From NCBI RefSeq assembly GCF_026967805.1, contig NZ_JAPVBG010000003.1:372001-436000 (forward strand): a DNA stretch of 64,000 nucleotides, in the 5' to 3' direction. Shown in pieces: positions 25,677-43,002 of the stretch; within the stretch, counting starts at the first letter, position 1; every line of letters begins with the position of its first letter. The notes under the pieces were generated by a model. It saw only the letters and a program-made list of their open reading frames with translations, was not told where the DNA came from and did no database searches. A program made the position numbers and the translations under genes. The DNA comes from Blastococcus sp. VKM Ac-2987. GTDB taxonomy: Bacteria; Actinomycetota; Actinomycetes; Mycobacteriales; Geodermatophilaceae.

Positions 25677-26648
25677 TCAGCGGGCGGGGTCGAGGACGAG
25701 CTTGCCGGTGGTGCGGCGGGCGAGCAGGTCCTGGTGGGCGTCGGCGACGCCCGACAGCGGGTAGCGGCCGCCGATCACCGGGTGCAGCTGGCCGTCGGCG
25801 ACCTGCTGCAGCAGGTCGGTCATGGCGGCGTCCATCATCTGCGGTCGCGCCATGCAGTGCGCCAGCCAGAAGCCGATGACCGCTCGGCTCTTCTGCATCA
25901 GCATCCCCGGCGGCACCGAAGGGGTCTGCTGCCGCGCGGCCATGCCGTAGGTGACCAGCCGGCCGAACGGCGCGAGCGCGGACAGCGAGCCGGAGAAGAC
26001 GTTGCCGCCGGTCATCTCCAGCACGATGTCGACCGGCTTGCCGCCGTTGGCCTCCCGCAGGGCCCCGGTGAACCGCTTCGGGTCCTCGTCGGCCAGCGCC
26101 GGGTCGACGGTGGCGTGCGCGCCGAGCTCCTCGGCGAGCTTCCGCTTCTCCGGGCTGGACGCGGTGGCGATGACCCGGCCGGCGCCCCAGCGGCGGGCCA
26201 GCTGGACGGCCAGCGAGCCCACACCGCCGGCTCCGGCGATGACGACGACCGTCTCGCCCTCGGCCAGGTGCGCGCTGGTGCGCAGCAGGTGCCAGGCGGT
26301 GCTGCCCTGCAACACCAACGACAGGGCCTGCTCGTCGCTGACGCCGTCGGGCACCGGCCAGGTGAGCGCGTCGTGCGCCGCCACCTTCTCGGCGTACCCG
26401 CCGCCGTCGAGGAGGCCGACGACCCGCTGACCGCCCCCGACCGGGGTGCCGACGAACTCGGCGCCCGGGACGAGCGGCAGTCTCTGCTCGGCCAGGTAGG
26501 AGTTCTCGATCTGGTGTGTGTCGGCGTAGTTCACCCCGGCGGCCGAGACGTCGTGCAAGGTTGTGCCCGGGCCCGCCTCCGGCTCCGGGACGTCGACGAC
26601 GGTCAGGACCTCGGGGCCACCGAACTCGGTGATCTGGACTGCGCGCAT
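25677..26648 (-). CDS. Quinone oxidoreductase-like NAD(P)H dehydrogenase (MDR family)
   Basis: 323-residue medium-chain dehydrogenase of the zinc-independent QOR type. GroES-like N-terminal domain (MRAVQITEFGGPEVL...), nucleotide motif GAGGVG at 139-144, C-terminal NGGKPVDIVLEMTGGNVFSGSLSALAPFGRLVTYGMA. The catalytic and structural zinc cysteines of alcohol dehydrogenases are absent. The ATG at 26648 follows a leaderless promoter (TAGCCT, 7 nt). It matters here because its first ~45 codons and promoter have three related, decayed partial copies at 28823-28982, 39847-39995 and 41834-41962. Confidence 0.9.
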   Translation of the reverse strand: MRAVQITEFGGPEVLTVVDVPEPEAGPGTTLHDVSAAGVNYADTHQIENSYLAEQRLPLVPGAEFVGTPVGGGQRVVGLLDGGGYAEKVAAHDALTWPVPDGVSDEQALSLVLQGSTAWHLLRTSAHLAEGETVVVIAGAGGVGSLAVQLARRWGAGRVIATASSPEKRKLAEELGAHATVDPALADEDPKRFTGALREANGGKPVDIVLEMTGGNVFSGSLSALAPFGRLVTYGMAARQQTPSVPPGMLMQKSRAVIGFWLAHCMARPQMMDAAMTDLLQQVADGQLHPVIGGRYPLSGVADAHQDLLARRTTGKLVLDPAR

Positions 26649-26655
26649 GAGGGTG

Positions 26656-26661
26656 AGGCTA
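26656..26661 (-). promoter_or_regulatory. Leaderless -10 element of the quinone oxidoreductase gene
   Basis: TAGCCT on the minus strand, 7 nt before the ATG at 26648. The same TAGCCT-CACCC-N2-ATG layout is kept in the partial copy at 39982-39995. Confidence 0.6.
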
Positions 26662-26862
26662 TGACCTGCTCACGCCCGGACGTCGTTCCGGCCAGCCCCG
26701 CCGGTCGCCGGGTGCTCGGCCGGGGCGTGGTGGTGAGCCGCCGGATCCAGAGGTGGGCGTGGTCGTCGGCGAGCTCGACGTAGAAGTCGGACAGGGGCGC
26801 CCGCAGCCCCACCGGTGGTGCGGGCTCCCCATCGCTCGCGCGGGCGGCTGCCTGGCCGAGGG

Positions 26863-28599
26863 TCAGCCGCCGGCGAGCCGCTGCAGCCGGGTGGCCAGCG
26901 CGCCCCGCCGGTCGGCGTTGCCGTGCAGGTCCACGTACCGCTGCCCGAAGCCGGCCAGCAGCGTGTCGTCCAGCCGGCGCACGGCACCCGGGGGATAGCG
27001 GTAGTCCATCCGGGCGGTGATGCCGCTGTCGTCGACACCGCGGAGCACCTCACCCAGCTCCACCAGGCTGGTCACGCCCAGCTCCAGGAGCAGGCCGGAG
27101 ATCCAGGTGTAGTGGTCCGGGCGTGACCAGCCGGCGTCGGCGTACTGCCCGGCCAGGAACGCAGCCAGCTCGCGGGGCGCGATCCGAGGGTCGTCGGGGT
27201 CGATGTCGTCGGCCTCGTCGCTGGGAACCGGTGCCCGTAGGCGTTCGCGGATCGCGGTGAACTGCTGGTCGGCCAGCTCCAGCAGCCCGGCGGCCAGGGT
27301 GAAGCGGCGGTCGAACTCGGAGGCGTGCTCGTCCGGCACCGTGCCCTTGTAGCGGATGTCGTGCTCGAACTCGGCCCACGCGTGTTGCAGCACCGTGCGC
27401 ACCTGCACCTGCACCACGCGCCCGACCAGCTCCGGCAGCTCCGCCGCCCGGCCCGGGTCCACGCCGATCAGCAGGTGCCGGCTGGAGTAGCCGAACCGGC
27501 CCTGCTGCGCGGTCCGCCGTCCCATGTCGCGGTCGTCGATCACCCGCACCTGCGCGGCCAGCAGCTCGGCGACCGCCTCCACGTCGCTCTGCACGTAGGT
27601 GATCACCCGCACGCCGATCTGGTCGGTGATGTCGCGCGCCGGGTCCGGGTAGGCAGGCGCGCCGTCGACCGTGCGGGCCGCCTTCTCCGCGAACGAGGCG
27701 ATGGTCTTGGTCCGCCCGGTCACCGACAGGTAGTTGATCCCGGCGTCGTTGAGCACCGCGGTGACGAGCGCGAGCGCCTGCGCCCCGGCGACCAGGGTCT
27801 CGGGCCGGCCGTCGGCGTACGCCTGGATGGCCTGCTGCACCGGGTCGGGCGGGGGTGCGGCGACCTGCGGGCCGGGCTCCAGGTCCGGCGGCAGGGTCGG
27901 GGTCACGATGGCGCCGCCGGCCGCGTCGCCGTAGGTGGTCACCTCGTCCGGGCGCCGGACGGCGATCCATCCCACGTAGGCGCACACCACGGCGTCCACC
28001 TGGTCCTCCGCCACCCGCAGCTCGCTCTTGCGGCTGGCGTCCTGCACCTGCTGGCGCAGCGCGGCGAACGGTGCGCCGAGGTCGAGCTCGGCCACCGCGC
28101 CCAGCAGATCGATGAGCAGCAGCAGCTCCGCACGCATCTGCTCGAGCGCCCGGCCCGGCTTGTTCTTGTACTTCAGCGTGCGGCCCAGCCGGAACAGCGC
28201 CACCGTCGCCGCGTGCGGGTACACCTCGATCGCGCGGCGGTCGCGGCCCGAGCGGGGGTCGAGGTCGAGCCGCAGGCGCCGGCCGATCCGCCCGCCGCGG
28301 GTGTCACCATCGGTGAACTCGGGCCTGCCGGTGTTCGTCGGGTGCGCTCCGGCCTCGAACCTCGCGAAGTCGGCGTTGAGCGCCCGCTCAGCGGCTCGAT
28401 TCCCGGTGGCGTTGGTGACCACCAGCGGGGCGTCTATCGCCACGATGCACGGGCCGGCGGTGAACGGGGCCAGCGCGGTCTCGATCTCCTCGTCGGTGCG
28501 CACCGCGCTGACGTGCACCAGCCGGCCGGCGTCATCCAGCACGGCGAGGCCGGTGGGTTGCCTGAGCCCCCAGGCGAGGTCGATCCCGATGTGGTGCAC
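26863..28599 (-). CDS. DUF429 (RNase H-like) - RelA/SpoT synthetase fusion
   Basis: 578 residues, two domains. Residues 1-215 are DUF429, a predicted RNase H-fold nuclease, with acidic residues Asp7 (IGIDLAWG), Asp56 (VAIDAPLVV), Glu125 (IEVYPHA) and Asp199/Asp202 (EDQVDAVVCAY). A Pro-rich linker (215-255) leads to a RelA/SpoT nucleotidyltransferase domain (about 255-460) with GRTKTIASFAEK (295-306), DQIGVRV (Asp326), GYSSRH (370-375) and VQVQVRT...HAWAEFEHDIRYK (396-418), so the synthetase site looks intact. No HD hydrolase, TGS or ACT domain is present. The last ~115 residues are unassigned. GTG at 28599 begins the DUF429 motif directly. It lies alone between the qor gene and its first partial copy. 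Confidence 0.82.
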   Translation of the reverse strand: MHHIGIDLAWGLRQPTGLAVLDDAGRLVHVSAVRTDEEIETALAPFTAGPCIVAIDAPLVVTNATGNRAAERALNADFARFEAGAHPTNTGRPEFTDGDTRGGRIGRRLRLDLDPRSGRDRRAIEVYPHAATVALFRLGRTLKYKNKPGRALEQMRAELLLLIDLLGAVAELDLGAPFAALRQQVQDASRKSELRVAEDQVDAVVCAYVGWIAVRRPDEVTTYGDAAGGAIVTPTLPPDLEPGPQVAAPPPDPVQQAIQAYADGRPETLVAGAQALALVTAVLNDAGINYLSVTGRTKTIASFAEKAARTVDGAPAYPDPARDITDQIGVRVITYVQSDVEAVAELLAAQVRVIDDRDMGRRTAQQGRFGYSSRHLLIGVDPGRAAELPELVGRVVQVQVRTVLQHAWAEFEHDIRYKGTVPDEHASEFDRRFTLAAGLLELADQQFTAIRERLRAPVPSDEADDIDPDDPRIAPRELAAFLAGQYADAGWSRPDHYTWISGLLLELGVTSLVELGEVLRGVDDSGITARMDYRYPPGAVRRLDDTLLAGFGQRYVDLHGNADRRGALATRLQRLAGG

Positions 28600-28822
28600 A
28601 AGGCCAGCATGCCCGGCCCCCGCAGCTCGGCGGGGCTCGTCCCATGAGATCTGCCTGGCGGGTCCGTGTGACGAGCTGCCCGAGATCGCTCGGATGAGCG
28701 CCGTTCCACCGGCCGGCTGTCCACCGGGTGGACGAACGCGAGGACATGGACCCGCTGCGTGGACGTGACGACACCGACTCGCCGCAGGCGCGGCTCCCCG
28801 AGCTGCCCGCCCACAGGCCGCC

Positions 28823-28982
28823 GTCAGGTCAGTGGCCAGACAGCCGGCGGTGGGGTCGGCGAGGTCGATGCCGGCGGTGGAGACGTCGAAGACCCGCTGG
28901 CCGGGGCCGCCTCCGGCTCGGGGGTGTCGACGACGTCGTGGACCCCGGGCCCGCCGAAGCGGGTGATCTGCGCGGCACGCAC
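28823..28982 (-). pseudogene. Decayed 5' fragment of a quinone oxidoreductase gene (copy B)
   Basis: On the minus strand from GTG 28982 it reads VRAAQITRFGGPGVHDVVDTPEPEAAP, clearly the start of the qor protein. A single missing base then shifts the frame; the other frame continues GQRVFDVSTAGIDLADPTAGCL. Nothing of the remaining ~280 codons follows. The promoter side is changed to a GGCA/CTGC-rich stretch. Its far end (ending in TCAGGTCAGT on the plus strand) matches the far end of copy D. It ends the block that holds the DUF429-RelA/SpoT gene and is in the same orientation as the intact qor. The rest of 28600-29127 shows no gene. Confidence 0.8.
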
Positions 28983-29127
28983 GCAGGCAGGCAGGCTGGC
29001 TGGGCCTGGCCCGGTGACCACTGGAACGGGGAAGACACCCCGGCAGAGTCGGCGTCCGCGCCCGAGGAGGTTGACCGGTCACCGACGGCGGTTCGACACT
29101 GGTCCTCTCCTGTGGAGGGAGCCGGCG

Positions 29128-29730
29128 ATGTCGTGGAACGTCAGAGGCAGCTACGCCGAGACCTGCTCGTGCGAGCTGATGTGCCCCTGCAATCTCTCGT
29201 TCGACCACGGTGCCACCTACGACTACTGCCGAGCGACCCTGGCCTTCGACATCCGCGAGGGCCAGGTCGAGGGCACCGATGTCAGGGGCCGTCGTGTCGT
29301 GGCGATCATCGACACCCCGAAGGTCATGACCGACGGCGGCTGGCGCCTCGGTGTGTTCGTCGACGACCAGGCCGACGACGACCAGTTCGACAAGCTGGTC
29401 AAGGTCTTCGGCGGGCAGCTCGGCGGCCCGATGGCCGCGCTCGCCCCGCTCGTCGGCGAGATCGCGGGTGTCGAGCGGGCGAGGATCGAGATCAGCGACG
29501 ACGGGCTCCTGCACCGCGTCCGCGTGGGTGACGTGATCGAGTTCGAGGTGGAGGACATCGTGCCGTTCGGCAAGGAGGACGGGCAGCCGGTGCGGTTCGA
29601 CGGGATGTTCCACCCGGCCGGGGCGAACCTGACCATGGCCGAGGCGCGGAGTTCGCGGATCGACGCCTTCGGGATCCGGTACGAGGGCAAGACCGGGCTG
29701 TCGACCTCGGACTTCTCCTGGGCCGGCTGA
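29128..29730 (+). CDS. DUF1326 family protein
   Basis: 200-residue protein, start MSWNVRGSYAETCSCELMCPCNLSFDHG. The cluster of cysteines (TCSCELMCPC) is the family signature and suggests metal binding. Then CRATLAFDIREGQVEGTDVRGRRVVAIIDTPKVM and a beta-rich remainder. ATG at 29128 has GGAGGGAG 6-7 nt upstream. The DUF2182 membrane protein begins 5 bp after the stop, and this two-gene pairing is conserved in many bacteria. Function is unestablished; a role in metal handling is an inference. Confidence 0.88.
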   Translation: MSWNVRGSYAETCSCELMCPCNLSFDHGATYDYCRATLAFDIREGQVEGTDVRGRRVVAIIDTPKVMTDGGWRLGVFVDDQADDDQFDKLVKVFGGQLGGPMAALAPLVGEIAGVERARIEISDDGLLHRVRVGDVIEFEVEDIVPFGKEDGQPVRFDGMFHPAGANLTMAEARSSRIDAFGIRYEGKTGLSTSDFSWAG

Positions 29731-29735
29731 CACCC

Positions 29736-30566
29736 GTGAGCGCGCCGACCCGGGAACGCTCCAGCGCCGGCGGGGGGCTGGCGCCCGCCTTCGCCGCGGT
29801 GCGCGTGCGGCTCCTGCTGGTCGCCGCGCTCTTCGCGCTCGCCGGCGCGGGGTGGTGGTGGACGGTCGACCGGATGCGGGGCATGGACGACGGGCCGTGG
29901 ACCGGCCTCGGCACGCTGGGCTGGTTCCTCGTCCTGTGGGTCGTGATGATGGCGGCGATGATGTTCCCGTCCGTCGCACCGACGATCGCCCTCTACTCCC
30001 GCATGACCGGGCGGCGGTCCCCGCTCTCACCGCTGCTGTTCACCGGCGGCTATCTGGCCACGTGGGCCGGCGCCGGACTTTTCGCCTATGCGCTCGCCGT
30101 GATCCTCGGCCGGGTGCCGGGCGATCTCCTGGCCTGGGACCGGGCGGGCCGATGGATCGCGGGAGGCACGCTGGTCATCGCGGCGGCGTACGAGATGACC
30201 CCGTTGAAGGACGTCTGTCTCGGCAAGTGCCGCAGCCCGCTCGGGTTCCTGCTCGGCGCGTGGCGGGACGGCCGCCGGGGTGCGTTCCTGATGGGCGCGA
30301 AGAACGGCGCCTGGTGCGTCGGCTGCTGCTGGGCACTCATGGCCTCGCTGTTCGCCCTGGGGGTCATGAGCATCGTGTGGATGGCCCTCGTCGCCGGGTT
30401 GATCGCGGTCGAGAAGACCCTGCCCTGGCGCAGGGTCGCGACGTACGGAACGGCCGCTGTGCTGCTCGGCCTCGGCCTGCTGCTGTTCGTGGCCCCGGAT
30501 GCCGTCCCGGCCCTCATGATTCCCGGAGCCGGGGAGACGGGCACGATGGGTCCGATGAGTTCCTAG
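29736..30566 (+). CDS. DUF2182 predicted metal-binding membrane protein
   Basis: 276 residues with about six to seven membrane helices. Family marks are WVVMMAAMMFPSVAPTIALYSRM, where a Met-rich helix could bind a soft metal, then YEMTPLKDVCLGKCRSPLGFLLGAWRDG and GAKNGAWCVGCCWALMASLFALGVMSIVWM. Cysteines in CLGKC and CVGCCW are candidates for metal ligands. The C-terminus is Met/Gly-rich (GETGTMGPMSS). It is the partner of the DUF1326 gene just upstream (GTG start 5 bp after its stop), so the two should act together at the membrane. Confidence 0.88.
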   Translation: MSAPTRERSSAGGGLAPAFAAVRVRLLLVAALFALAGAGWWWTVDRMRGMDDGPWTGLGTLGWFLVLWVVMMAAMMFPSVAPTIALYSRMTGRRSPLSPLLFTGGYLATWAGAGLFAYALAVILGRVPGDLLAWDRAGRWIAGGTLVIAAAYEMTPLKDVCLGKCRSPLGFLLGAWRDGRRGAFLMGAKNGAWCVGCCWALMASLFALGVMSIVWMALVAGLIAVEKTLPWRRVATYGTAAVLLGLGLLLFVAPDAVPALMIPGAGETGTMGPMSS

Positions 30567-30746
30567 GAACCTGCGGCGGGCGCGGATGGGCGCCCCGAGC
30601 GGTGGTCGCCCGTGGTGTCCCGCAGCAGTCTCCTGCAGCGGCAGGCGCGCGAGGGACTCCACGGGTCCTGCGACTCCTCGACTGCGGTTGTGACTCGCGC
30701 CACAGTGCCGTGCGGCGTATCGGCCGCCGGTCGCACGAGGAGACAC

Positions 30747-31850
30747 ATGAGCGAGACGACGCAGGAGGTCAGGGCGCGGCAGGAGGGTCGGCTCGCCGAC
30801 CCGGACGTGGAGCTGCGCACCGATCCACGACTGCACCCCGGCCTGCGGGCGACGTTCGCGGCATTCCAGCTGGACCGGCACGCCGCCCCGCCGCCGTTCG
30901 ACCGCAGCGCCCCGCCGGAGGCGGTCGCCGAGTTCGTCGGCGCTTCGCACGCCGCCTTCGAGGAGCTGTACGCCGCCGTCCCCAGCGACTGGCCCGACGA
31001 GGTGCGCGCCGATGTCGACCACCGGCAGGAGACGGTGAGCGCGGTCGACGGATATGAGATCCCGCTGCACGTGCTCCGTCCGGCCGGCGTCGAGGGCCCA
31101 CTGCCGTGCGTGGTCTACATCCACGGCGGTGGCATGACGATCCTCGAGGCGCACAACGCGGTGCACCGACGCTGGAGCGAGGACCTCGCCCTGACCGGCA
31201 TGGTGGTGGTCACCGTCGGCTTCCGGAACGCCTGGACCGAGCAGGGGCCCAACCCGTTCCCGGTGGGGCTGGACGACTGCAGCTCCGCGCTCGACTGGGT
31301 GCACGAACACCGCGCCGAGCTGGGCATCACCCGGATCGTCCTGCAGGGAACGTCCGGCGGGGCCAACCTCGTGCTGGCCACCACGCTGAAGGCCAAGCGG
31401 GAGAACCGGCTGAACCGCATCGACGGCGTCTACGCGATGGTTCCGTACATCAGTGGCGGCTACGGCTGGAGCCGCGAGCGCAAGCTTCGGGAGCTGCCGT
31501 CGATGGTCGAGAACGACGGGCACTACATCAACTGCGACATGATGGACATGCTCGTGGCGGTCTACGACCCGACCGGCGAGAACGCGGAGAACCCGCTCGC
31601 CTGGCCGTACTTCGCCACCGAGGACGACGTCGCGGGGTTGCCTCCGCACGTGATCGCAGTCAACGAGCTCGACCCGCTGCGCGACGAGGGGATCGCCTAC
31701 TTTCGGCTGCTGCAGCGGGCCGGGGTCCCGGTGGTCGGCCGCGTGAACCTCGGCCTCACCCACGCCGCGGACATGTCCTTCCGTGCGGCGGTGCCCGAGG
31801 CGTACAAGGCGGCGGTGCGCGACATCCGGGGGTTCGCTGACGCGCTCTGA
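30747..31850 (+). CDS. Alpha/beta hydrolase, HSL-type esterase
   Basis: 367-residue carboxylesterase of the hormone-sensitive-lipase family. Oxyanion motif YIHGGGM, nucleophile elbow GTSGGAN (serine), acid in ELDPLRDEG and histidine in GLTHAADM. An N-terminal ~100-residue helical cap (AEFVGASHAAFEELYAAVPSDW) precedes the core. No signal peptide, so cytoplasmic. ATG at 30747 follows GAGGAG with 4 nt spacing. The natural ester is unknown. Confidence 0.88.
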   Translation: MSETTQEVRARQEGRLADPDVELRTDPRLHPGLRATFAAFQLDRHAAPPPFDRSAPPEAVAEFVGASHAAFEELYAAVPSDWPDEVRADVDHRQETVSAVDGYEIPLHVLRPAGVEGPLPCVVYIHGGGMTILEAHNAVHRRWSEDLALTGMVVVTVGFRNAWTEQGPNPFPVGLDDCSSALDWVHEHRAELGITRIVLQGTSGGANLVLATTLKAKRENRLNRIDGVYAMVPYISGGYGWSRERKLRELPSMVENDGHYINCDMMDMLVAVYDPTGENAENPLAWPYFATEDDVAGLPPHVIAVNELDPLRDEGIAYFRLLQRAGVPVVGRVNLGLTHAADMSFRAAVPEAYKAAVRDIRGFADAL

Positions 31851-31990
31851 GTGACGACGGCGCTGCTAGTCATCGGCGACGTCGAGGGCACCGGACCCGT
31901 TGCCGCTCACCCCGCGGAGCGGGTCGGACGCGGTCGAGGAAGTCGGCGCTCCGGGGCATCCCACCGACTTCCACGTGCCGGTGTCCACCG
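31851..31990 (+). pseudogene. Possible remnant of an isochorismatase-family gene
   Basis: Directly after the esterase stop a GTG frame reads MTTALLVIGDVEGTG. Isochorismatase-like cysteine hydrolases typically start with MTTALLVIDVQ, so an extra codon and later frame changes would explain it. No long frame follows and the later catalytic parts are absent. This rests on a very short match. Confidence 0.3.
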
Positions 31991-32070
31991 CGCGACGCGG
32001 GTGCGCTGTCGTGATCGAGGGCCGGGGACCCGGACTCGTCACCGCTGGCCCGACGGGGTCCCGGCCGGGC

Positions 32071-33435
32071 TCACGACCGGACCGGGGCCAGCCAGGGGGA
32101 GGCCTGGTCGCACAGGCGCTCGTAGTCGGCGGACAGCGTCAGCGACTCCTTCGCGCTGTCGAGGACGAGGCGCGCCTCCCGCCGGAGCGGGCCGGTGCGG
32201 TCGGGAAGGCCTGCGTCCTCGAGCTGGGCCACCAGCATCTCGATGGTGCTCAGCAGGCAGCGGGCGATCGTCGGCGACTGGGCGCCCGCCAGGCGGATGC
32301 GCTCGAAGGCGGTGGAGACGTAGTCGCCGAAGCCCTGCTCGTCGGCAAGGACCACCGCGCGCCCGGCACTCGCCGTCCGCCAGCTCGGTGGCAGATCCCG
32401 CAGCAGCAGCGCACGCAGGACGATGCCGAGGTGGAGGACGACCTCGCGGACGGTGGTCGAGTCGCTGCTGCTCTGGGAGCCGGCGCGCTCGGCGATGTCC
32501 ACGAGCAGGGTGAGCCCGTAGCCGAGGTCCTGCTCCAGCGTCGGGTCGGCGCCGATCACGACGGCCGAGCGGACGGCGGAGCACACGCTCTCGTCCGGCT
32601 CTCCGTCCGACCCGTTCCGCACCGTCGCCAGCAGGATCCCCTCGGACACGAAGTCCCCGGCGTGCACCGACAGCTCCACGGTCGTCCGCGGCGGCAGGGC
32701 GTCGAGCACGGCGTCGAGGTCGATCCGCTGGATCCAGCCGCTGTCCTGCGCCAGCACCGGACGCCCCGGACCGTCGTCGCCTCCCCGGGGCACCGTGTCC
32801 GGGGGGTCGGCCGAGTGGCCACGCTCGAGCGGCGGGTGGGTGACCTCGATGAGGCGCAGGCAGTTGTCGGTCATCCAGCGGATCATGCGGCCGATCTCGC
32901 CCCAGTGGGTGGCGTTGCGGAGGGCGAAGAGGACCAGCATCGCGGCCATGACCGGGACGGCGCATGCAACGGCCACGGACACCTGGGGCACGGAACCACC
33001 GGCGTCCGGGTCGGGGATTGCCCGGGCGACGAGGATCACGAAGGTCATCGAGCCGACGAGGGCGCCCATCGCGTGGCGCTGCACCGGATCGGTCAGGAAG
33101 CGACGTCGGACCCGGGCGGACAACGGTTCCGCGCTCATCTGCAGCGCGTAGATCCGGACCATGAAGACGACCGAGATCACGAAGAGCAGGCTCGAGCCGA
33201 AGCCGGTGGTCAGGGCCTGCGCGACGGAGGTGCCGACGTGCAACCAGGACGGCGTCCCGTCCGGGCCGAGCCACCGGTCGAGCGTCAGCGTCCCGGCCGC
33301 CAGGGCCGCCCCGCCCGCGACGTACAGGAGCGCCACGACCACCGGGTGGTCGGTCGGCGTCCCGGTGCCGGGAGCCGCGGAGAGTCGCCGCTCGGCCCGA
33401 GGGCGCCGCGGTTCCGTTCCCGTCGGGGACGCCAC
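32071..33435 (-). CDS. DUF2254-like membrane protein
   Basis: 454 residues. Four membrane segments in the first ~190 residues (VVVALLYVAGGAALAAGTL, GFGSSLLFVISVVFMVRIYAL, AMGALVGSMTFVILVARAI and VSVAVACAVPVMAAMLVLFAL) are followed by a large soluble part with ERGHSADPP, a beta-rich domain (SGWIQRIDLDAVLDALPPRTTVELSVHAGDFV) and helical end. This fits DUF2254, whose function is unknown. GTG at 33435 lies 7 nt after the stop of the DUF2267 gene, which decides the start and shows a two-gene operon. Confidence 0.78.
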   Translation of the reverse strand: MASPTGTEPRRPRAERRLSAAPGTGTPTDHPVVVALLYVAGGAALAAGTLTLDRWLGPDGTPSWLHVGTSVAQALTTGFGSSLLFVISVVFMVRIYALQMSAEPLSARVRRRFLTDPVQRHAMGALVGSMTFVILVARAIPDPDAGGSVPQVSVAVACAVPVMAAMLVLFALRNATHWGEIGRMIRWMTDNCLRLIEVTHPPLERGHSADPPDTVPRGGDDGPGRPVLAQDSGWIQRIDLDAVLDALPPRTTVELSVHAGDFVSEGILLATVRNGSDGEPDESVCSAVRSAVVIGADPTLEQDLGYGLTLLVDIAERAGSQSSSDSTTVREVVLHLGIVLRALLLRDLPPSWRTASAGRAVVLADEQGFGDYVSTAFERIRLAGAQSPTIARCLLSTIEMLVAQLEDAGLPDRTGPLRREARLVLDSAKESLTLSADYERLCDQASPWLAPVRS

Positions 33436-33442
33436 CGCCGGC

Positions 33443-33820: not shown

Positions 33821-34130
33821 AGCTCCTCCTCGCGATCCCTGCCTGATCCGGACGCGAGGGACCGACCGCCCGGTGCCCCCACCCTGGCGGGTGCCGCCGG
33901 GGGGAGGCCATCGGCAGACCTGCCGATTCGCGCGCCGTCCGGCGACCGGTGGGGCGGCCGACCGGCCTCAGCTGCGCTGCGCCTGGCAGGACATCGCTCG
34001 CTGCCGCCGGCGCGGTCGTGGGCAGGGGCGCCTTGACCGACAGCCGCGGTCGTGACCGTCCCGGCGCCCAGACGTCGACGTGGGCCGCCGCACCACTCAC
34101 CGCGCGCAGCGGCGACCACGGTCCGGGACA

Positions 34131-34886
34131 TCATCTGGCACGACCTGCCATCCGGGCCCACCCGCTGCGCGGAGGCGGGACACGCAGGGCGCGCTGGACG
34201 GCAGCGGCCAGGCCGACGCCCACGACGGCGGCGGCTGAGGGTTTCGGCGACCAGCGCAGCGCGGTGACGGCCCAGCCGACGGGGGCCTCGCGTTGCCGGT
34301 CGGATTCCCGACCCGGTGTCGTCGTCGCCGGCTCCGGTGACGTCTCCGCGAAGGCGTCGAGCATCCCCCGGACGAAGGCGGTCATGTCCTGGGGCCCTCT
34401 GCTCGTGGTCAGGTTGCCGTCCCGGACGATCTCCCGATCGAGCCAGGTGGCACCGGCGTTGACCAGGTCGTCGCGGATCCCGGGCCAGGAGGTGAGGGTC
34501 CGTCCGTCCAGGAGGCCCGCCGATGCGAGCACCCACGGTCCGTGGCAGAGGGTGGCGATGGGCTTGCCACGTGCGGCGAACGCGCGGACGAACTCCCGTG
34601 CTGCGGCGGACTGCCGGAGCAGGTCGGGATTGATGAACCCGCCGGGCAGCAGCAGCCCGTCGTAGTGGGCGGGATCGGCGTCGTCGACCGGCTGGTCCAC
34701 GCGGACCCGGCTGGCCGGCATGTGCAGGTTCACCCCGCGGATCCGCCCGCGCCGCAGGGACACGACGTCCACCGTGGCGCCGGCCGCCTTCAGCGCTCGC
34801 AGCGGAACCACCAACTCGACCTTCTCGAAGCCGTCGGCCGCCAGGGCAGCGATGGTCCGGCCCTTGAGCCGGCGTCTGGTGGGCAT
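34131..34886 (-). CDS. DJ-1/PfpI family protein
   Basis: 251 residues. The class I glutamine amidotransferase-like fold has nucleophile elbow ATLCHGPWVL (Cys114, His115), YDGLLLPGGFINPDLL and LTSWPGIRDDLVNAGATW. PfpI proteins act as stress proteins, chaperones or deglycases. The PfpI core ends near residue 185; the remaining ~65 residues (AFAETSPEPATTTPGRESDRQREAP...) are a low-complexity tail not part of the family. ATG at 34886 follows GGGGGA at normal spacing. An earlier in-frame start would add an unrelated 29-residue tail. Confidence 0.85.
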   Translation of the reverse strand: MPTRRRLKGRTIAALAADGFEKVELVVPLRALKAAGATVDVVSLRRGRIRGVNLHMPASRVRVDQPVDDADPAHYDGLLLPGGFINPDLLRQSAAAREFVRAFAARGKPIATLCHGPWVLASAGLLDGRTLTSWPGIRDDLVNAGATWLDREIVRDGNLTTSRGPQDMTAFVRGMLDAFAETSPEPATTTPGRESDRQREAPVGWAVTALRWSPKPSAAAVVGVGLAAAVQRALRVPPPRSGWARMAGRAR

Positions 34887-35059
34887 GGCGTCCCCCTGTT
34901 GCCTGATGGCGCACGGACGACGGAACTGCCCGGGTAGCGGGAGCTCGATCGGCGGCGCCACGGTCGTTCGCACCTCGCCGGCTGCTCAGCGGTGAGTGGA
35001 GTACCCGCACCGGGCGGCCGGACACCTTCCCGGGCGACCACGGTGAATGACGTCCGGGC

Positions 35060-35373
35060 TCACGGCGGGTCCGCCGCAGCCGGTGCGGCCGTCGGAGCCG
35101 GCTCGGGAAGCGCGTCCGGGATGACCTCCGGCTCGGTGTCGGCCCGCGCCGCGGGCACCGCGTAGGCCCAGACGAGGTGCCGCACGACCGTGTTCCCGAC
35201 GAGGTAGGCGCGTGCCCGCTCCTCCAAGGCGGCGTCGGCGACCGTGCCCCGTTCGACGTGCTGGCGCAGGTGTTCACGCCACGTGGTGACGGTGAACGTC
35301 TCCAGGAAGAGCTCGGGATCCTCCGCGTCCTGGAACACGCCCCACAGGTAGGCGCCGGTGCGGCGCCGGGCCC
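35060..35373 (-). pseudogene. 3' remnant of an MFS transporter gene
   Basis: The frame reads RRTGAYLWGVFQDAEDPELFLETFTVTTWREHLRQHVERGTVADAALEERARAYL, which resembles the cytoplasmic C-terminal region of the DUF894-type (MFS_3, enterobactin-exporter-like) transporters. None of the preceding ~400 residues of membrane helices exists. A GTG at 35338 could start a 92-residue product. Upstream, on the same strand, a TAGCCT element 6 nt before an ATG at 35385 is in a different frame. The product ends in a Pro/Ala-rich tail. Assigned as gene decay. Confidence 0.55.
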
Positions 35374-35558
35374 GGGCGGGCGCATGCAGTCAGGCTATGG
35401 GCTTGGCGCGTTCGTCACCGGGCCAGGGCCGCTTTGATCACGTCGGAGAGCGCCCCCGGAGCACCCGTCCGATCGCCCATAGCCTGCAGTCCACCCGGGG
35501 AGCTGTGCATCCCTCCCTGACCGGGAATCGACGGATCGGTGGGCGTAGCGGCGCCCGG

Positions 35559-35564
35559 TACCAT
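35559..35564 (+). promoter_or_regulatory. Candidate -10 element of the SpoIIE phosphatase gene
   Basis: TACCAT fits TANNNT and would give a ~50-nt leader to the GTG at 35620, which has AGGGGGA just upstream. Confidence 0.35.
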
Positions 35565-35619
35565 CAGCGAGCTGACTCCGTGGGACCTCACGTCCGTGTC
35601 CCTGTCCTAGGGGGACTCT

Positions 35620-38232
35620 GTGACTGGCTCGCTACCTGCGGGCACCGCGCTGCCCGCGCAGTCGGATGCGGCGTTCGAGCGCTTCGCCCGGCTGGTGCGT
35701 CGGCAGCTGGACGTCCCCGTGGCGCTGGTGACCATGGTGTCGGCCGACGAGCAGGTGTTCCCGGGCGCGCTGGGGCTGCCTGAGCCTTGGCAGTCCACGC
35801 GTAGGACGCCGCTGAGCCACTCGTTCTGCCAGCACGTGGTGCGCTCGGCCGCCCCGCTGGTCATCACCGACGCGCGCACCGATCCGTTGGTCGCCGACAA
35901 CCTGGCCATCCCCGACCTGCACGTCATCGCCTACGCCGGCGTTCCGATGACCGACGCCGACGGCCAGGTCGTGGGCTCGCTGTGCGCCATCGACAGCCGG
36001 CCGCGGGAGTGGAGGGACGAGGACCTGGCGGTGCTCACCGACCTGGCCGAAGCGTGCGCCTCGGAGCTGCGGATGCGGGCTGCCCAGCTACGCGCCGACG
36101 CCGCCGTCGCCCGGGCGGAGGAGTCCGCGGCGCACGCGCGTCAGTTGCTCGCCGAACGCGAGTTCGACCGGTCCCGGTGGTTGCTGGCGCTGCACGCCGG
36201 GCAGGCCGGCACCTTCGACCTGGACCTGGCCACCGGCGCGCTGACCGCGGATGACCGCCTGCTGGAGTTGTCGGGGATGGACCGGGCTGGCTTCTCCGGC
36301 CGGCCCGAGGACGTGTACGCCCACGTGCACCCCGACGACCTCGCCGATGTCGTGGCTGCAGTTCAGCACGCCGTCGACACCGGCGGGACCTACGACGCCG
36401 AATACCGGATCGTCCTCGCCGACGGCGCGCACCGCTGGCTCGCCGCCCGAGGGCAGGTGGTCGGCGGTGGAGACGGCGTCGGTTCGCGCCTCGTGGGCGT
36501 GGTGCACGACACCACCGCCCAGCGGGAGCCGCTGACCCTGGCAGCTCAGGCGGTCGAGTCGATGGCGGTCGGCTTCCTCGCGATGGACACCGACTGGGTG
36601 ATCACGCACGTCAACGCCGAGGCCGAGCGGATCGCCGGCTTCCCCCGGGAGAAGCTGCTGGGCCGCACGCTGTGGGAGGCGTTCCCGGCCACCGTCGGCA
36701 CCGAGTTCGAGGACCACTACCGCCGCGCCGCCGGCACCGGGCAGCCGGTGTCCTTCGACGCGTACTACCCCCAGCCGCTGGACGTCTGGGTCGAGGTGCG
36801 CGCCGTGCCGAACCCAGCAGCGGTTGCGTTGCACTTCGTCGACGTCACCGCCCGGGCCTCGGCGCAGCAGCAGGCGGAGCGGGCAGCCGGGCGGGAGCGG
36901 CTGCTGGGCCGAATCACCGAGGAGCTGGTCGGCACCCTGGACGCCGACGAGGCCGCCGACCGGCTGGCTCGGCTGCTCGTTCCGGCGCTGACCGACTGGT
37001 GCATCGTCACTCTCAGCGTGGATGACCAGGCCGCGGGCGTCCGGCGCGGCCTGCGCCCGGCCGCAGCCCAGCACGCCGACCCCGCGATGCAGGAGATCCT
37101 GGATAGCTACGCCCAGGTCCGGCTGGCTGCCGTCTCCGACGACGCGGTCCTCAAGCGGGCCATGCGGACAGGTCAGCTGCAGCTCCTCGACGCCAACGCG
37201 ACCGCGCGAGCCCTCACGAGGCTCACCCCCGGGCCGATGCACGATGCGCTCCGGGCGCTGGCACCCGAAGCAGTGGTGGTGCTCCCACTACCTGGGCGGG
37301 ACGGCTCGGTCGGGATGCTCACCCTGGCCAACGGCACCGACCGGGGCGGATTCTCTGCCGAGGACCTGGTCACCGCCCGGCACGTCGCCGCGCGGGCGGG
37401 GCTGGTGCTGGACAACGCCCGGCTGTTCCGGCAGCAGCGTGGGCTGGCAGAGGGCTTCCAGCGGTCGCTGCTCACCGCTCCGCCCGAACCCGACCACCTG
37501 CAGATCGCCGTCCGGTACGTGCCCGCAGCTCAGTCGGCAGAGGTCGGCGGCGACTGGTACGACGCGTTCATGCAGCCAGGGGGTGCGACCCAGCTGGTCA
37601 TCGGCGACGTCGTCGGGCACGACGTGGCTGCCGCGGCGGCGATGGGTCAGATCCGCAGCATCGTGCGCACCATCGGCGCTCTGGACCACGACGGCCCGGC
37701 TGCAGTGCTGCGCCAGGTAGGGCAGGTGATGGAGACCCTGCAGTCACCGATCTTGGCCACGACGCTGATCGCGCGCCTGGAGCAGACCGACGCCGAGCGC
37801 GAAGCCGGGCTGACCCGGTTGCGCTGGTCGAACGCAGGCCATCCGCCGCCGATGACGATCGCCTCCGACGGCACGGTGACCGCGCTGACCACCGAGCACA
37901 CGGACCTGCTGCTCGGTGTGGACGCTGCGGCCGTACGCCGGGAGTCGCAGGTGACGCTGGGGCGGGACGTGGTCGTCCTCCTGTACACCGACGGGCTCGT
38001 CGAGCGCCGGAACTCCGACCTCGACGCGGGAACGGCTCGGCTGGAGGCCGTGCTGGCCGAGCTCGCCGGCCGGGAGCTGGACGAGCTGTGCGACGAGCTG
38101 CTGGCCCGCATGCTGCCCGACGCGCCCGACGACGACGTCGCGCTGGTCGCCGTGCGGCTGCACCCGCAGGACCGGCCGCGCCCGCCGGAGGCCGGCCCGC
38201 ACCGGGTGCCGCCGGGCTTCCCGGTGGACTGA
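35620..38232 (+). CDS. Multi-sensor SpoIIE-type PP2C phosphatase
   Basis: 870 residues. Order: GAF (about 20-165; LDVPVALVTMVSADEQVFPGALGL), PAS (about 195-300; HPDDLADVVAAVQHAVDTGGTYDAEYRI), PAS (about 305-410; DTDWVITHVNAEAERIAGF), GAF (about 425-610) and a SpoIIE/RsbU phosphatase (about 625-855) with EVGGDWYDAF, VIGDVVGHDVAAAA and LLYTDGLVERR. Such proteins dephosphorylate anti-sigma-factor antagonists in partner-switching stress or light responses. GTG at 35620 has AGGGGGA upstream. It converges with a MEDS/ATPase kinase gene 26 bp away, a likely anti-sigma partner. Confidence 0.93.
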   Translation: MTGSLPAGTALPAQSDAAFERFARLVRRQLDVPVALVTMVSADEQVFPGALGLPEPWQSTRRTPLSHSFCQHVVRSAAPLVITDARTDPLVADNLAIPDLHVIAYAGVPMTDADGQVVGSLCAIDSRPREWRDEDLAVLTDLAEACASELRMRAAQLRADAAVARAEESAAHARQLLAEREFDRSRWLLALHAGQAGTFDLDLATGALTADDRLLELSGMDRAGFSGRPEDVYAHVHPDDLADVVAAVQHAVDTGGTYDAEYRIVLADGAHRWLAARGQVVGGGDGVGSRLVGVVHDTTAQREPLTLAAQAVESMAVGFLAMDTDWVITHVNAEAERIAGFPREKLLGRTLWEAFPATVGTEFEDHYRRAAGTGQPVSFDAYYPQPLDVWVEVRAVPNPAAVALHFVDVTARASAQQQAERAAGRERLLGRITEELVGTLDADEAADRLARLLVPALTDWCIVTLSVDDQAAGVRRGLRPAAAQHADPAMQEILDSYAQVRLAAVSDDAVLKRAMRTGQLQLLDANATARALTRLTPGPMHDALRALAPEAVVVLPLPGRDGSVGMLTLANGTDRGGFSAEDLVTARHVAARAGLVLDNARLFRQQRGLAEGFQRSLLTAPPEPDHLQIAVRYVPAAQSAEVGGDWYDAFMQPGGATQLVIGDVVGHDVAAAAAMGQIRSIVRTIGALDHDGPAAVLRQVGQVMETLQSPILATTLIARLEQTDAEREAGLTRLRWSNAGHPPPMTIASDGTVTALTTEHTDLLLGVDAAAVRRESQVTLGRDVVVLLYTDGLVERRNSDLDAGTARLEAVLAELAGRELDELCDELLARMLPDAPDDDVALVAVRLHPQDRPRPPEAGPHRVPPGFPVD

Positions 38233-38258
38233 CCTACGCAGCCGGGTAGGCGGCCTGC

Positions 38259-39287
38259 TCAGGCCCAGCGGGTGGTGAGCCGGACGCTGCTGCCGTGTGC
38301 ATCTCGGCGCAGTGCCACGTGGTCGCACAGCTGGCGGGCCAGCCACAGCCCCATCCCGCCGGCCGACAGGTCTTCGCCGTGCGCGGGCCCGTACCCGGCG
38401 AAGGGGTCGGCCGGGCCGGTTCCGGCGTCGCTGATGGTGCACACCAGCTGACCCGGCGCGGTCCACAGCCGCAGGCTGACCGGTTGGTGGCCGTGCCGGA
38501 CGGCGTTGGAGGTCATCTCGTCGACGGCGAGCTGGAAGTCCTCCAGCAGGTCATCTGGTCCGGCGACCATGCTCAGGTGACGGCGGATGGTCCGTCGGAG
38601 CCCGATGAAGTCGGTGACGTCGTCGGCGGCCAGAGCCGGCGGCGTGCGCTCCAACGGCTCGTCGGGCACCGGCAGGCCGGCCAGGTAGGTCACCGGGTCG
38701 ACGTAGTCGCCGTTCGTCGCCCGGCCGGCGCGGCTGACCAGCTGCGGGTGGGTGTGCCTGGCGGTGGCCAGCAGCGGCTCGGGCAGGTCGGTGCTGAACA
38801 AGCACAACCCCCACAGCGGTGCGGGCGCGAATGCGGCATTGATGACCGCCTCGTAGCGCTGCCACTCGGTCCAGTCAGCGACGGTGGTGCCGAAGTCCAC
38901 CTCGCCGACGACCCGGATCCGCTGGCCGTCGCCCGCCTGTTCACCGAGTCCGCGGAACGTGGTGATCGCCGTCGGCGTGCGTGCGCGGTAGAGGGCGTGC
39001 CGCTCGAGCACCAGGACCAGGGGGTGGTTCCCGACCGCGTCGTGGAGGGCGGCGGTGGCTTCCGGACTGGCAGCGATCACCGCGCCGTCACCGGCGGCCA
39101 GGCCCTCGAGCAGGAACGGGGCGGCGAGGTCGACCAGGTCCTCGGCCGAGTCGTAGAGCAGCGCGTCATGCCGGAAATCCGGCACCGCGCACCCGCCCGG
39201 CCCGGCGCCGGTCGTGCTGCCGTGCCGGTCGGCGTCCCCCGTGTGTTCGAGGCCCAACGCGTCCAACCCCCATGTCGTGCCGCTCAC
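38259..39287 (-). CDS. MEDS-domain anti-sigma factor / serine kinase
   Basis: 342 residues. An N-terminal MEDS (DcmR-like) sensory domain (FRHDALLYDSAEDLVDLAAPFLLEGLAAGDGAVIAA) is followed by a GHKL ATP-binding domain of RsbW type (LAVDEMTSNAVRHGHQPVSLRLW, then DAGTGPADPF and GGMGLWLARQLCDHV). Such proteins sequester sigma factors or phosphorylate their antagonists. The frame is open further upstream; GTG at 39287 is chosen as the first plausible start, with TACCGT (TANNNT) about 28 nt earlier. Convergent with the SpoIIE phosphatase. Confidence 0.82.
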   Translation of the reverse strand: MSGTTWGLDALGLEHTGDADRHGSTTGAGPGGCAVPDFRHDALLYDSAEDLVDLAAPFLLEGLAAGDGAVIAASPEATAALHDAVGNHPLVLVLERHALYRARTPTAITTFRGLGEQAGDGQRIRVVGEVDFGTTVADWTEWQRYEAVINAAFAPAPLWGLCLFSTDLPEPLLATARHTHPQLVSRAGRATNGDYVDPVTYLAGLPVPDEPLERTPPALAADDVTDFIGLRRTIRRHLSMVAGPDDLLEDFQLAVDEMTSNAVRHGHQPVSLRLWTAPGQLVCTISDAGTGPADPFAGYGPAHGEDLSAGGMGLWLARQLCDHVALRRDAHGSSVRLTTRWA

Positions 39288-39382
39288 GCTCGGTAGGCGC
39301 GGCTCCGGTCTACGGTAGCTGCGGTTTCGGTACGAGCCACCGGGGAGATGGGCTGTGTCGTCGTGCGACACGAGTGGCGGGC

Positions 39383-39724
39383 CTAGGGCTGAAGTTGCTC
39401 CGTGTCGCCGGTGAGCCACTCCGGGATGACGATGCGGGCGTCGTCTCGCGGCTCGGCCTGGTGCTCGAGCACCCTGCCCTTCAGCTGCCGAACGGTCTCC
39501 GGCGCCGGGTCGCCGGCGGCCAGTGCAGAGCTGACGAAGTCCGCCGGCCGCTGCTCGCGAAGAAGTCGCCGCAGGGAGAGCGGGCCTCGGTGTCGTTCAG
39601 GGGCGGGACCCGACCCCTGTAGCCGCTGCTCAAGCGACCTGATCTCGGCCTTCGTCCCGGCCCGACGCGCACTCGGACCGAGTGCCTCCGGCGATGCCCG
39701 GCGCTCCGCGGGCGAACGGCTCAC
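39383..39724 (-). CDS. Hypothetical protein
   Basis: 113-residue open frame, GTG start: SRSPAERRASPEALG, then AEIRSLEQRLQG and ADFVSSALAAGDPAPETVRQLKGRVLEHQ...ARIVIPEWLTGDTEQLQP. The last third has normal codon bias for this genome, the first part less. No family recognised. It may be a real small gene or the end of a decayed one in this disturbed region. Confidence 0.4.
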   Translation of the reverse strand: MSRSPAERRASPEALGPSARRAGTKAEIRSLEQRLQGSGPAPERHRGPLSLRRLLREQRPADFVSSALAAGDPAPETVRQLKGRVLEHQAEPRDDARIVIPEWLTGDTEQLQP

Positions 39725-39846
39725 ACGGACGTGCGCTGCGGGGCGGAGCCGCGTGGCAACTGAATGGTGGGATCAGAGAGCCATGGAATGGGGCTCGATG
39801 TCGAGCGGTCCGTGCCTCTCGGCGGGCCGACTGAGCACTCCGACGG

Positions 39847-39995
39847 TGGTGGGTGTCGGCGAAGTTGACGCCGGCGGCGGAGACGTCGTAGAGCTGCTGC
39901 CCGGGGCCGGCCTCCGGCTCCGGGATGTCGACGACGTCGAGGACCTCGGGCCCGCCGAAGCGGTGATCTGCACAGCGCGCATGCGGGTGAGGCTA
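39847..39995 (-). pseudogene. Decayed 5' fragment of a quinone oxidoreductase gene (copy C)
   Basis: The minus strand keeps the leaderless promoter (TAGCCT 39995-39990, 7 nt, ATG 39982) and reads MRAVQIT, then one missing base shifts the frame; the restored frame is FGGPEVLDVVDIPEPEAGPGQQLYDVSAAGVNFADTHH. It ends at about codon 45, and unrelated sequence follows. It lies ~280 bp upstream of the beta-amylase and in the same orientation as copy D on the other side. The rest of 39725-40270 shows no gene. Confidence 0.85.
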
Positions 39996-40270
39996 GGGCC
40001 CTGGGCGCAGGGCAGTTCTCCTCGGGCTGGCGGGCGTCGCTTGACGCGGGTATCCGCTGCAGCCAGCGGGCGAAGATGCCCGACCCACTGCATGTGCAGA
40101 CCTCGAGGTCGGGCGTCCGTGGATCTTGGGGCTGAGCGAGGCCCATCATGCGCAGGGGCGAGGTCTGCGGCCCGCTCAGGACCGCGAGTCGGGCAGGACA
40201 CGCCGGGAAGACGTATTAGACCGGAGACTGAACCGCAGCCCGGCGCGAGAGGCTGGCAGGGTGTCCGGGT

Positions 40271-41722
40271 GTGAGACACGTCACAGTCACGTTCGCCGTC
40301 CTGAGCTTGCTCCTCGCCGGCGCCAGCGGCGCCCAGGCCACTCCTGCGGACGGCCCGGTCCCCCCCGGGCCTGTGGCGCTGGACAACCCGGAGTTCACCG
40401 CGAACGTCATGGCACCGCTGAAGGTGACCGACTGGGCGACGTTCGAAGCCGACCTCGAGACCGTGGCCGCCTATGGCGTGGACGCCGTCAGCGTCGACGT
40501 GTGGTGGGGCGACGTCGAGGGTGTGGCCGACAACCAGTTCGACTGGAGCTACTACGACCAGGTCTTCGACGTGATCACGTCCAAGGGCCTGGACCTGGCG
40601 CCGATCCTGTCGTTCCACCAGGCCGGCGGCAACGTCGGAGACGACTACACGAGCCTGCTGCCGTCGTGGCTGTGGCCCAAGTACGCGGATGTCACCTACC
40701 GCGGCATCGAGCTCGGCGCGACGGGACTCCAGCACCAGAGCGAGCAGGGGAACCACAGCGCCGAGAGCGTGCAGGGCTGGGCCGACCAGCTGGTCATGGA
40801 CGAGTACCGCGACTTCACCGAGGCGTTCGAGCAGCAGTACGGGGACGTCTATGCCGACGAGGTGATCGAGATGAACGTCTCCCTCGGCCCGTCCGGCGAG
40901 TTGAGGTACCCCTCCTACAACCAGCACGACGAGGGCACTGGCTACCCGACCCGGGGTGCACTGCAGGCCTACTCCCCGCTGGCCGTGCAGGACCTCCGCA
41001 GCCAGATGCTGCACCGGTACGGCTCCCTGGAAGCGATCAACGCCGCCTGGGGGACCCACCTCGCGTCGGTGCAGGAGATCACCCCGCCGGAGGACGCCGA
41101 CGCCTTCTTCGCCGGCCTGGACTACCTGGACACGCAGTACGGCCGCGACTTCGTGGACTGGTACAACGGCTCGCTCGTCGAGCACGGCGAGCGCGTGCTG
41201 TGGGCGGTCATCGACGCCCTCGGCGAGGACTTCCCCGATGCCGACATCGGCTACAAGGTGCCGGGGATTCACTGGTCGATGACCAACCCCGCCCATCCGC
41301 GGGCCGCAGAGGTGACCACCGGCCTGATCCAGACGAGCATCGACCTCGACTCCTGGAAGACCGGGCACGGCTACCAGCGGGTCGTCGAGCTGGCCAACCG
41401 GTTCGACGGCGGCCCCCGCGAGGTGGTCATGCACTTCACCGCGCTCGAGATGGACGACGACCCGGGGGAGCCCGCCTACTCGCTGGCGCAGACCTTGGTC
41501 GGCTGGATCGGCGACTACGCCTACCGCGCCGGCGTCGAGCTCAAGGGCGAGAACGCGCTCGCCGGCGGCGTCACGTCCGACGAGGGCTGGGACAACATCA
41601 ACGAGGCCTTCGAGATGTGGGGCTACCTCGGGCTGACCGTGCTTCGCATCGGTGACGTGTCCACGGGCACCGGGGCAGATCGATATGCGAAGTTCATCGC
41701 GACGTACAACCCCGACATCTGA
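40271..41722 (+). CDS. Secreted beta-amylase, glycoside hydrolase family 14
   Basis: 483-residue exo-acting enzyme that releases maltose from starch. Signal peptide of about 23 residues (RHVTVTFAVLSLLLAGASGAQA), so secreted. GH14 marks: DVWWGDVEG, LSFHQAGGNVGDD, catalytic acid Glu210 in SLGPSGELRYPSY, PGIHWSMTNPAHPRAAE and catalytic base Glu427 in KGENALAGG. Plant and Bacillus enzymes have HQCGGNVGD; here the Cys is Ala. No starch-binding domain follows. Bacterial GH14 genes are uncommon. It is framed on both sides by same-orientation qor 5' fragments, which suggests acquisition by recombination. Confidence 0.92.
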   Translation: MRHVTVTFAVLSLLLAGASGAQATPADGPVPPGPVALDNPEFTANVMAPLKVTDWATFEADLETVAAYGVDAVSVDVWWGDVEGVADNQFDWSYYDQVFDVITSKGLDLAPILSFHQAGGNVGDDYTSLLPSWLWPKYADVTYRGIELGATGLQHQSEQGNHSAESVQGWADQLVMDEYRDFTEAFEQQYGDVYADEVIEMNVSLGPSGELRYPSYNQHDEGTGYPTRGALQAYSPLAVQDLRSQMLHRYGSLEAINAAWGTHLASVQEITPPEDADAFFAGLDYLDTQYGRDFVDWYNGSLVEHGERVLWAVIDALGEDFPDADIGYKVPGIHWSMTNPAHPRAAEVTTGLIQTSIDLDSWKTGHGYQRVVELANRFDGGPREVVMHFTALEMDDDPGEPAYSLAQTLVGWIGDYAYRAGVELKGENALAGGVTSDEGWDNINEAFEMWGYLGLTVLRIGDVSTGTGADRYAKFIATYNPDI

Positions 41723-41833
41723 CGACGCGGCGGCGGTGTCACCGCCGGGTGGAACCGGCAGTTCCCTGTGCTGGCGCAGAGAGCTGCGGCCGCCCGGCGG
41801 TGGGGTAGCCGCCACAGCAGCCCACGGCCCGCC

Positions 41834-41962
41834 TCAGGTCAGTTGGGAGACAGCCGCTGGTGGGTGTCGGCGAAGTTGACTCCTGCGGCGGAGGCGTCGT
41901 AGAGCTTCTGCTCCGGACCGGCCTCCGGCTCCGGGACGTCGACGACGTCGAGGACCTCCGGC
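41834..41962 (-). pseudogene. Decayed 5' fragment of a quinone oxidoreductase gene (copy D)
   Basis: Reads PEVLDVVDVPEPEAGPEQKLYDASAAGVNFADTHQRLSPN then TGA on the minus strand, with the first ~10 codons lost. By eye it differs from copy C at 9 of ~103 aligned bases. The stop and following TCAGGTCAGT-type end are shared with copy B, so the unit has a defined far end. The break on the promoter side is about 8 bp from the stop of the XRE regulator gene. Confidence 0.85.
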
Positions 41963-41969
41963 GCCCAGG

Positions 41970-42866: not shown

Positions 42867-43002
42867 CCGATCGACGCTACGTCGCTGCGCCGGTGGAGGG
42901 AGGTCGAGCTTCTACCCCCCACAAACCCGCCCTCCCACCCGAGGGCTCCAACGCGTTCCGTGGGTCCGACACCCGTCCAGACCACGTCGCGAGGAGCACC
43001 CC

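Follow-up and report, generated by a model that had tools for sequence, protein, structure and literature searches.

The DNA analysed here, a stretch of 64,000 nt from Blastococcus sp. VKM Ac-2987 (contig NZ_JAPVBG010000003.1, positions 372,001 to 436,000; "the window" in the following), carries an intact quinone oxidoreductase gene, qor, and upstream of it, on the same strand, three displaced copies of its 5' end (codons 1-46) with mutually unrelated cargo genes between them. Very probably, this locus is a single-site cassette array that has grown by site-specific integration into codon 46 of qor. A recombinase would join an incoming element, presumably circular, to the chromosome within this codon, with the element laid out as a left arm of ca. 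25 nt, cargo in either orientation, and a leaderless promoter followed by the first 46 codons of qor. Upon integration, qor would gain this new promoter and start and would thereby stay open, and the old start would be shifted to the far end where it would now precede the element's left arm, the usual source of an in-frame stop codon. Repeated integration could then build a tandem array in which the displaced starts are the separators, presumably with an enzyme acting in trans and probably under selection for keeping qor.

Searches of the strain's own genome recovered four copies, i.e., the start of the intact gene (unit A) and the displaced units B, C, and D (Table 1), along with one weak match (window 62088-62138, E 1.9e-4). 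Identities to copy C of 84% (A), 86% (B), and 91% (D) come with E values of 4e-39 to 6e-37 in this genome, and the likeness of the copies is therefore not due to chance. A relaxed search of the window yielded no fifth unit at E<0.01 and none inside the large block II either. A preliminary description of this DNA had already reported three partial copies of the qor start on the minus strand, a leaderless promoter preserved in copy C (TAGCCT-7 nt-ATG), and a far end common to B and D (ACTGACCTGA, or TCAGGTCAGT on the plus strand), and our analysis bears out all three points. It had let the copies stop near codon 45; they do share an end, but its exact place is one base in codon 46. It had also pointed to features common to B, C, and D but missing from A. 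These exist but fall within the normal variation of qor starts across the family, and A's class of start occurs only beside a DUF429-RelA gene. Finally, it had taken an absence of further copies in the genome as a sign of ordinary decay of duplicated genes. There are indeed just these four, but this yardstick is ill-suited because the site is a single locus at which copy number varies between species.

We compared the window with related loci in a sample of 105 stretches (2.03 Mb from 85 genomes, window included) picked from matches to copy-C and copy-D queries. Across these, a unit profile detected 154 displaced and 76 intact starts, with 28 of the displaced ones falling short of the junction. 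The common end of the displaced copies follows GCCGACACCCACCA, often with an arm of ca. 25 nt behind it that qor itself lacks; in intact genes, GCCGACACCCACCA runs on into GATCGAG or a near variant. The junction reads ACCCACCA plus arm in displaced copies and ACCCACCA plus GATCGAG or a variant in intact ones, and the exact core is present in 67 of 122 displaced units and 58 of 76 intact genes. Two arm subfamilies stand out, CCGGCTGTCGGCCAACTGACCTGAG (32 of 94 arms) and CCGGCTGTCGTGAGAGGTACCTCAG (21 of 94). An in-frame stop codon lies no more than 9 codons past the junction in 89 of the 122 displaced units, at two fixed places in 80 of these, compared with 14 and 46 of 122 when the two other frames are read and 18 in a stretch inside the cargo. 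Both arm subfamilies place a stop in the frame of the displaced qor at arm positions +10 to +20, and a displaced copy that bears its promoter could specify a peptide of ca. 50 amino acids.

It is only the start of qor that is found displaced. When all stretches were searched with tblastn for 46-codon slices outside intact qor, codons 1-46 occurred at 136 places and the next five slices at 0, 0, 1, 0, and 0, a pattern that decay of duplicated genes would not produce. Differences at the three codon positions amount to 0.13, 0.09, and 0.23 among displaced starts and 0.10, 0.06, and 0.23 among intact ones, and the reading frame is intact in 53 of 76 full-length displaced units compared with 39 of 41 intact genes under the same filter. 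Such coding-like differences and intact frames fit what would be expected of working gene starts that were displaced fairly recently. Along qor itself, the correlation with the rest of the gene is lowest for the start region (rho 0.25 vs 0.37-0.49 in other segments; 73 genes).

Arrays of this kind are spread through the Geodermatophilaceae. A 171-base copy-C query found matches in all 23 genomes of the genus (each with a best E of at most 1e-37), several of which have copies clustered on one contig, and a copy-D query matched 104 of 112 family genomes, weak matches to other genes counted in. Where a stretch includes an intact qor, the displaced starts share the strand of that gene and lie 5' of it in 79 of 80 cases, with a paralogue as the lone exception. 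At least one displaced unit is present in 56 of the 85 genomes, which is a lower bound because most loci are covered only in part, and the number of displaced units per genome ranges from 0 to 8 and varies among species of one genus. Arrays are also present in single-contig genomes (G007, G009, G021, and G047) and are therefore no assembly artefacts. Visual inspection of the predicted proteins places the arrays between fabG-fabI-hemH at their far end and qor-VWA-DUF58-MoxR at their near end. A strict arm pattern had 14 matches in 10 of 108 family genomes, every one inside array spans by coordinate. In a collection of 84,980 species, the exact core-plus-arm pattern retrieved 36 stretches, 14 of them chance matches and 22 with a unit; of the latter, 21 bear Geodermatophilaceae names and one is a metagenome-assembled genome titled Frankiales. 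A search of 298 genomes of the order, with at most two matches scored per genome, was for this reason unable to reveal arrays. Among 20 stretches taken from it, one (G106) belongs to the Geodermatophilaceae, and the 19 others include 15 with a qor orthologue (52-63% identity) and no second unit in the DNA examined.

To see what moves together, 82 complete blocks were compared, which yielded 34 homologous cassette pairs. In the cleanest of these (L098/L120), homology sets in immediately after the junction, continues across arm, cargo, and the following unit, and stops at the next junction. The left unit is 82% identical (random pairs 75%), the arm 96%, the cargo 96.4% end to end, and the right unit 99%; the DNA behind the next junction is unrelated (47%), and the host qor region stands at 91%. 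Between genera, cargo can be more alike than the 3' part of qor, as in G008/G100 (94.4% vs 83.2%) and G024/G003 (93.4% vs 83.5%). The DUF429-RelA cassette and its qor start, common to G008 and the window, amount to a comparison of filled and empty sites: in the window, this start belongs to the intact gene, and in G008 it has been displaced. Over 180 nt, the eight starts nearest to window unit A (0.87-1.00; among 185) all have a DUF429-RelA gene no more than 210 bp away; six of these starts are intact and two displaced. A ninth unit adjacent to such a gene (L076) is truncated and reaches 0.78 to window A, and for nine other DUF429-RelA genes, the distance to the next unit is 285-9144 bp.

The sequences show an exact common end, an arm, one-directional arrays, and displacement of the start only; they also show at least one cassette shared as arm, cargo, and unit, and several pairs whose cargo is closer in sequence than their host loci are. 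Since both partners share sequence left of the junction, the crossover can be assigned to that side but to no particular base. The constant ends with variable neighbours that the preliminary description had proposed to look for are found in relatives, and its suggestion that a recombination site parts the cargo blocks is strongly supported. Its other suggestion, that the 150-bp repeat is itself the mobile element, did not stand: the mobile unit would run from the arm behind one copy through the next copy, and the copies are displaced 5' ends of qor.

Several observations weigh against site-specific integration at codon 46 as the full account. Of the 94 arms, 41 are divergent or eroded, and the decay of units does not rise significantly with distance from qor (rho -0.25, p 0.07). 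Only 8 of the 34 pairs have homology that starts no more than 4 bases from the junction in each member (arm 80-96%, unit in front 65-82%); their right units are at 0.99 and 0.90 in two pairs and at 0.69-0.81 in six, and there are few pairs in which the right unit clearly travels with the cargo (window/L071, 0.91). Many remaining pairs have an inner gene alone in common or remodelled ends. In L095/L078, units are swapped past the first codons, and in G100/G101, which belong to one genus, the cargo (95.2%) is not above qor (95.8%). Present activity of the arrays is something that we infer, and no enzyme for the insertion was found in the searches made.

These searches covered several recombinase families. 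A home-made profile of limited sensitivity, built from 8 tyrosine recombinases of the strain's own genome, found no tyrosine recombinase in the 105 stretches. With PF00589, 12 array genomes gave no match within array coordinates at E<=0.01; for the 23 genomes of the genus, the matches listed reach down to about E 2e-19. For PF00239, the complete listing for the same 23 genomes has 0 of 33 places inside an array, and among nine genomes there was no match in G003, G009, G010, and G024. Serine recombinases were examined in 28 of the 85 genomes altogether. PF01548 (IS110) matched in 7 of 12 genomes. No recombinase stood beside qor in five stretches read gene by gene, nor in the window, with no intI-specific model used. 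Separately, a pair of highly divergent genes resembling tyrosine recombinases (L161, E 2.5e-4; L162, E 0.017) lies, with 8 kb between them, in an island-like region of the strain's own genome away from qor (L163, G000:C5:552000-571999).

The enzyme could have come from outside. On this account, the cassettes would be relics of integrative elements aimed at qor that lack an integrase, akin to cis-mobilizable elements (CIMEs), and a related, integrase-bearing visitor would move them now and then in cis or in trans. This overlaps with the cassette array proposed here, the difference being the source of the enzyme, and we give it close to an even chance. CIMEs and integrase-less islands at ssrA are known to behave in this way, and several array genomes encode many PF00589 or PF00239 genes elsewhere. 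Genome G027 has a large serine recombinase (PF00239, PF07508, PF13408) on its array contig, the sole recombinase seen on such a contig, ca. 44 kb from the nearest unit and toward the unassembled qor side. There, the qor-proximal side of the array (G027:C3:1-48000; L249-L252) is unit-free for 49 kb up to the contig end and holds, by labels assigned by eye, DUF429-RelA, large helicase- or methylase-like, and GTPase-like genes; this region might be an integrase-bearing parent element. Against relics stand the lack of any integrase-bearing element between units in the arrays examined and the fact that the G027 recombinase has neither a homologue in the 105 array stretches nor an attachment (att) site link. 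No related integrative and conjugative element (ICE) or integrative and mobilizable element (IME) with the same att sites was seen in phages, viral contigs, plasmids, or the arrays examined, which represent part of the family genomes: the core-plus-arm pattern had 0 matches in viral contigs, phages gave no match, and plasmids gave 4 weak qor-like matches only.

Alternatively, the family may have a gene-capture system of its own, which would be integron-like but unrelated to integrons, with recombinase-free cassettes that have a displaced protein-gene start as their common site and are moved in trans, and with qor as the single dock that each cassette repairs. We offer this tentatively and with some doubt. 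The enzyme would be XerC/XerD or one outside PF00589, PF00239, and IS110. Genome G024 has six displaced units, no match to PF00239 or PF01548, and two PF00589 proteins in total, read as XerC and XerD. It follows from these contents that the enzyme is XerC/XerD, belongs to none of these families, was brought by a visitor, or has been lost. The junction core is G+C-rich and presumably unlike dif.

Two further explanations are both very improbable. One is that RecA-type homologous recombination alone shifts blocks via the 150-bp repeats, with no site-specific enzyme. Units do exchange, probably by homologous recombination, given that L095/L078 change partners inside a unit, and homologous transfer of blocks would need no enzyme gene, in line with none having been found. 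However, a constant arm of ca. 25 nt before unrelated cargo would remain unexplained, as would the position of the L098/L120 crossover, which falls on the last base of codon 46 and is preceded by a dissimilar unit. The other is a true integron variant in which an IntI-type integrase acts on folded attC-like sites built of core and arm. Mixed-cargo arrays with a recombination site as separator would suit it, and so would the bottom strand of the ACTGA arm class, which folds better than with shuffled arms (mean z -1.59, n=46), but the remaining arms do not (z -0.26, n=25; -0.39, n=50), no integrase was seen beside the insertion point in the stretches read gene by gene, and G024 has its XerC- and XerD-like proteins as the only PF00589 members. 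The DNA of window 26000-43000 has no Rfam match. Hardly credible, lastly, is ordinary decay, i.e., tandem duplication of qor followed by erosion to 5' pieces, since although the copies derive from qor, some are frameshifted, and the reading frame is broken in 23 of 76 full-length displaced units, only codons 1-46 remain and the copies have a single common end, a common arm, and unrelated cargo between them.

Each known system with which the arrays can be compared matches them in part. Elements specific to dusA and the ICE SXT at prfC are islands that provide their target gene with a rebuilt start; they encode integrases, are large, and are mobilizable or conjugative (PMC8409611). Insertion at qor likewise lies inside the 5' end with a predicted supply of promoter and in-frame N-terminus, but it forms many small blocks with no recombinase seen and up to eight displaced starts. 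The ssrA islands of Dehalococcoides are in tandem, parted by gene-end repeats with a conserved motif beside the repeat, 15 of them without an integration module and 16 with a serine recombinase module; their target is the 3' end of an RNA gene, and the repeat measures 20 bp (PMC3146451). Blocks at qor share the tandem arrangement at one gene and the gene-end repeats; unlike there, the separator comprises a promoter and coding sequence totalling ca. 150 bp, and no recombinase module is seen in the arrays. Streptococcal CIMEs carry integrase-less cargo between att sites in tandem beside a target gene, adjoin ICEs or IMEs, and sit at 3' ends of genes (PMC7563491). The qor cargo, too, is flanked by att sites, in tandem and with no recombinase seen, but no ICE or IME partner is seen for it. 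Integrons and clusters of attC sites lacking integron-integrases (CALINs) are arrays of unrelated cassettes with the recombination site as separator, some without a resident integrase (PMC8618304). This resembles the unrelated cargo and recombination-site separators at qor, but qor has no integrase seen beside it (which a CALIN does not need either) and no attI platform, attC-like folding is suggested for one arm class only, and what separates the cassettes is a displaced gene start, required to make the anchor gene whole again. New here are multi-genus arrays of small integrase-less cassettes with a coding separator and no visible parent element. In titles and the opening of abstracts, with subscription journals mostly outside the coverage, we found no account of insertions at qor in Geodermatophilaceae.

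If the cassette array is real, it would be a family-wide platform for exchange of metabolic, regulatory, and candidate defence genes across genera. How integrase-less cassettes move and how new ones arise would become testable questions, and the exact qor site would be a candidate integration site for the genetics of desert- and stone-dwelling actinomycetes.

The blocks between junctions are mostly small, with a median of 3.3 kb (n=105; range 0.3-17.7 kb; quartiles 1.9 and 5.4 kb). A home-made gene caller predicted 289 genes in the first 61 stretches, 151 directed against qor and 138 with it, which fall into 189 clusters, one of which (nine members) comprises the displaced starts themselves. 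The features of the window are collected in Table 1; its block II may be several old cassettes.

Table 1. Features of the qor locus in the window.
Feature	Position	Strand	Remarks
Intact qor	25677..26648	-	323 aa; array anchor gene; ADH_N, ADH_zinc_N, ADH_zinc_N_2
Unit A	26512..26663	-	leaderless promoter and first 46 codons of intact qor; insertion point 26512/26511
Unit B	28848..28987	-	displaced qor start, lacks one base close to its end; junction 28848/28847
Unit C	39847..39997	-	displaced qor start, promoter retained; single-base deletion close to codon 8; junction 39847/39846
Unit D	41858..41962	-	displaced qor start without promoter and ca. first 12 codons; junction 41858/41857
Left arm behind unit B	28823..28847	-	CCGGCTGTCTGGCCACTGACCTGAC
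Left-arm position behind unit C	39822..39846	-	diverges from both arm subfamilies
Left arm behind unit D	41833..41857	-	GCGGCTGTCTCCCAACTGACCTGAG
Cassette I, arm to unit A	26512..28847	-	one gene, DUF429 + RelA_SpoT (26863-28599); PADLOC candidate PDC-S44/PDC-S33
Block II, arm position to unit B	28848..39846	-	11 kb; DUF1326, PpoB2, Abhydrolase_3, DUF2254, DUF2267, DJ-1/PfpI, GAF/PAS/SpoIIE, MEDS+HATPase
Cassette III, arm to unit C	39847..41857	-	single plus-strand gene, GH14 beta-amylase-like (40271-41722)

Candidate defence cargo includes the DUF429-RelA protein of cassette I, which recurs at 91-96% amino acid identity in 17 further stretches from several genera; the PADLOC candidates PDC-S44 and PDC-S33 match its first half (E 3e-76) and a portion of its second half, respectively. 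A second candidate is a double-GTPase (DO-GTPase2) protein, encoded in a two-gene cassette (L068:11975-13470) and also present in L076, L107, and L115, i.e., in four family genomes. A homologue of the cassette III gene sits between units in L106.

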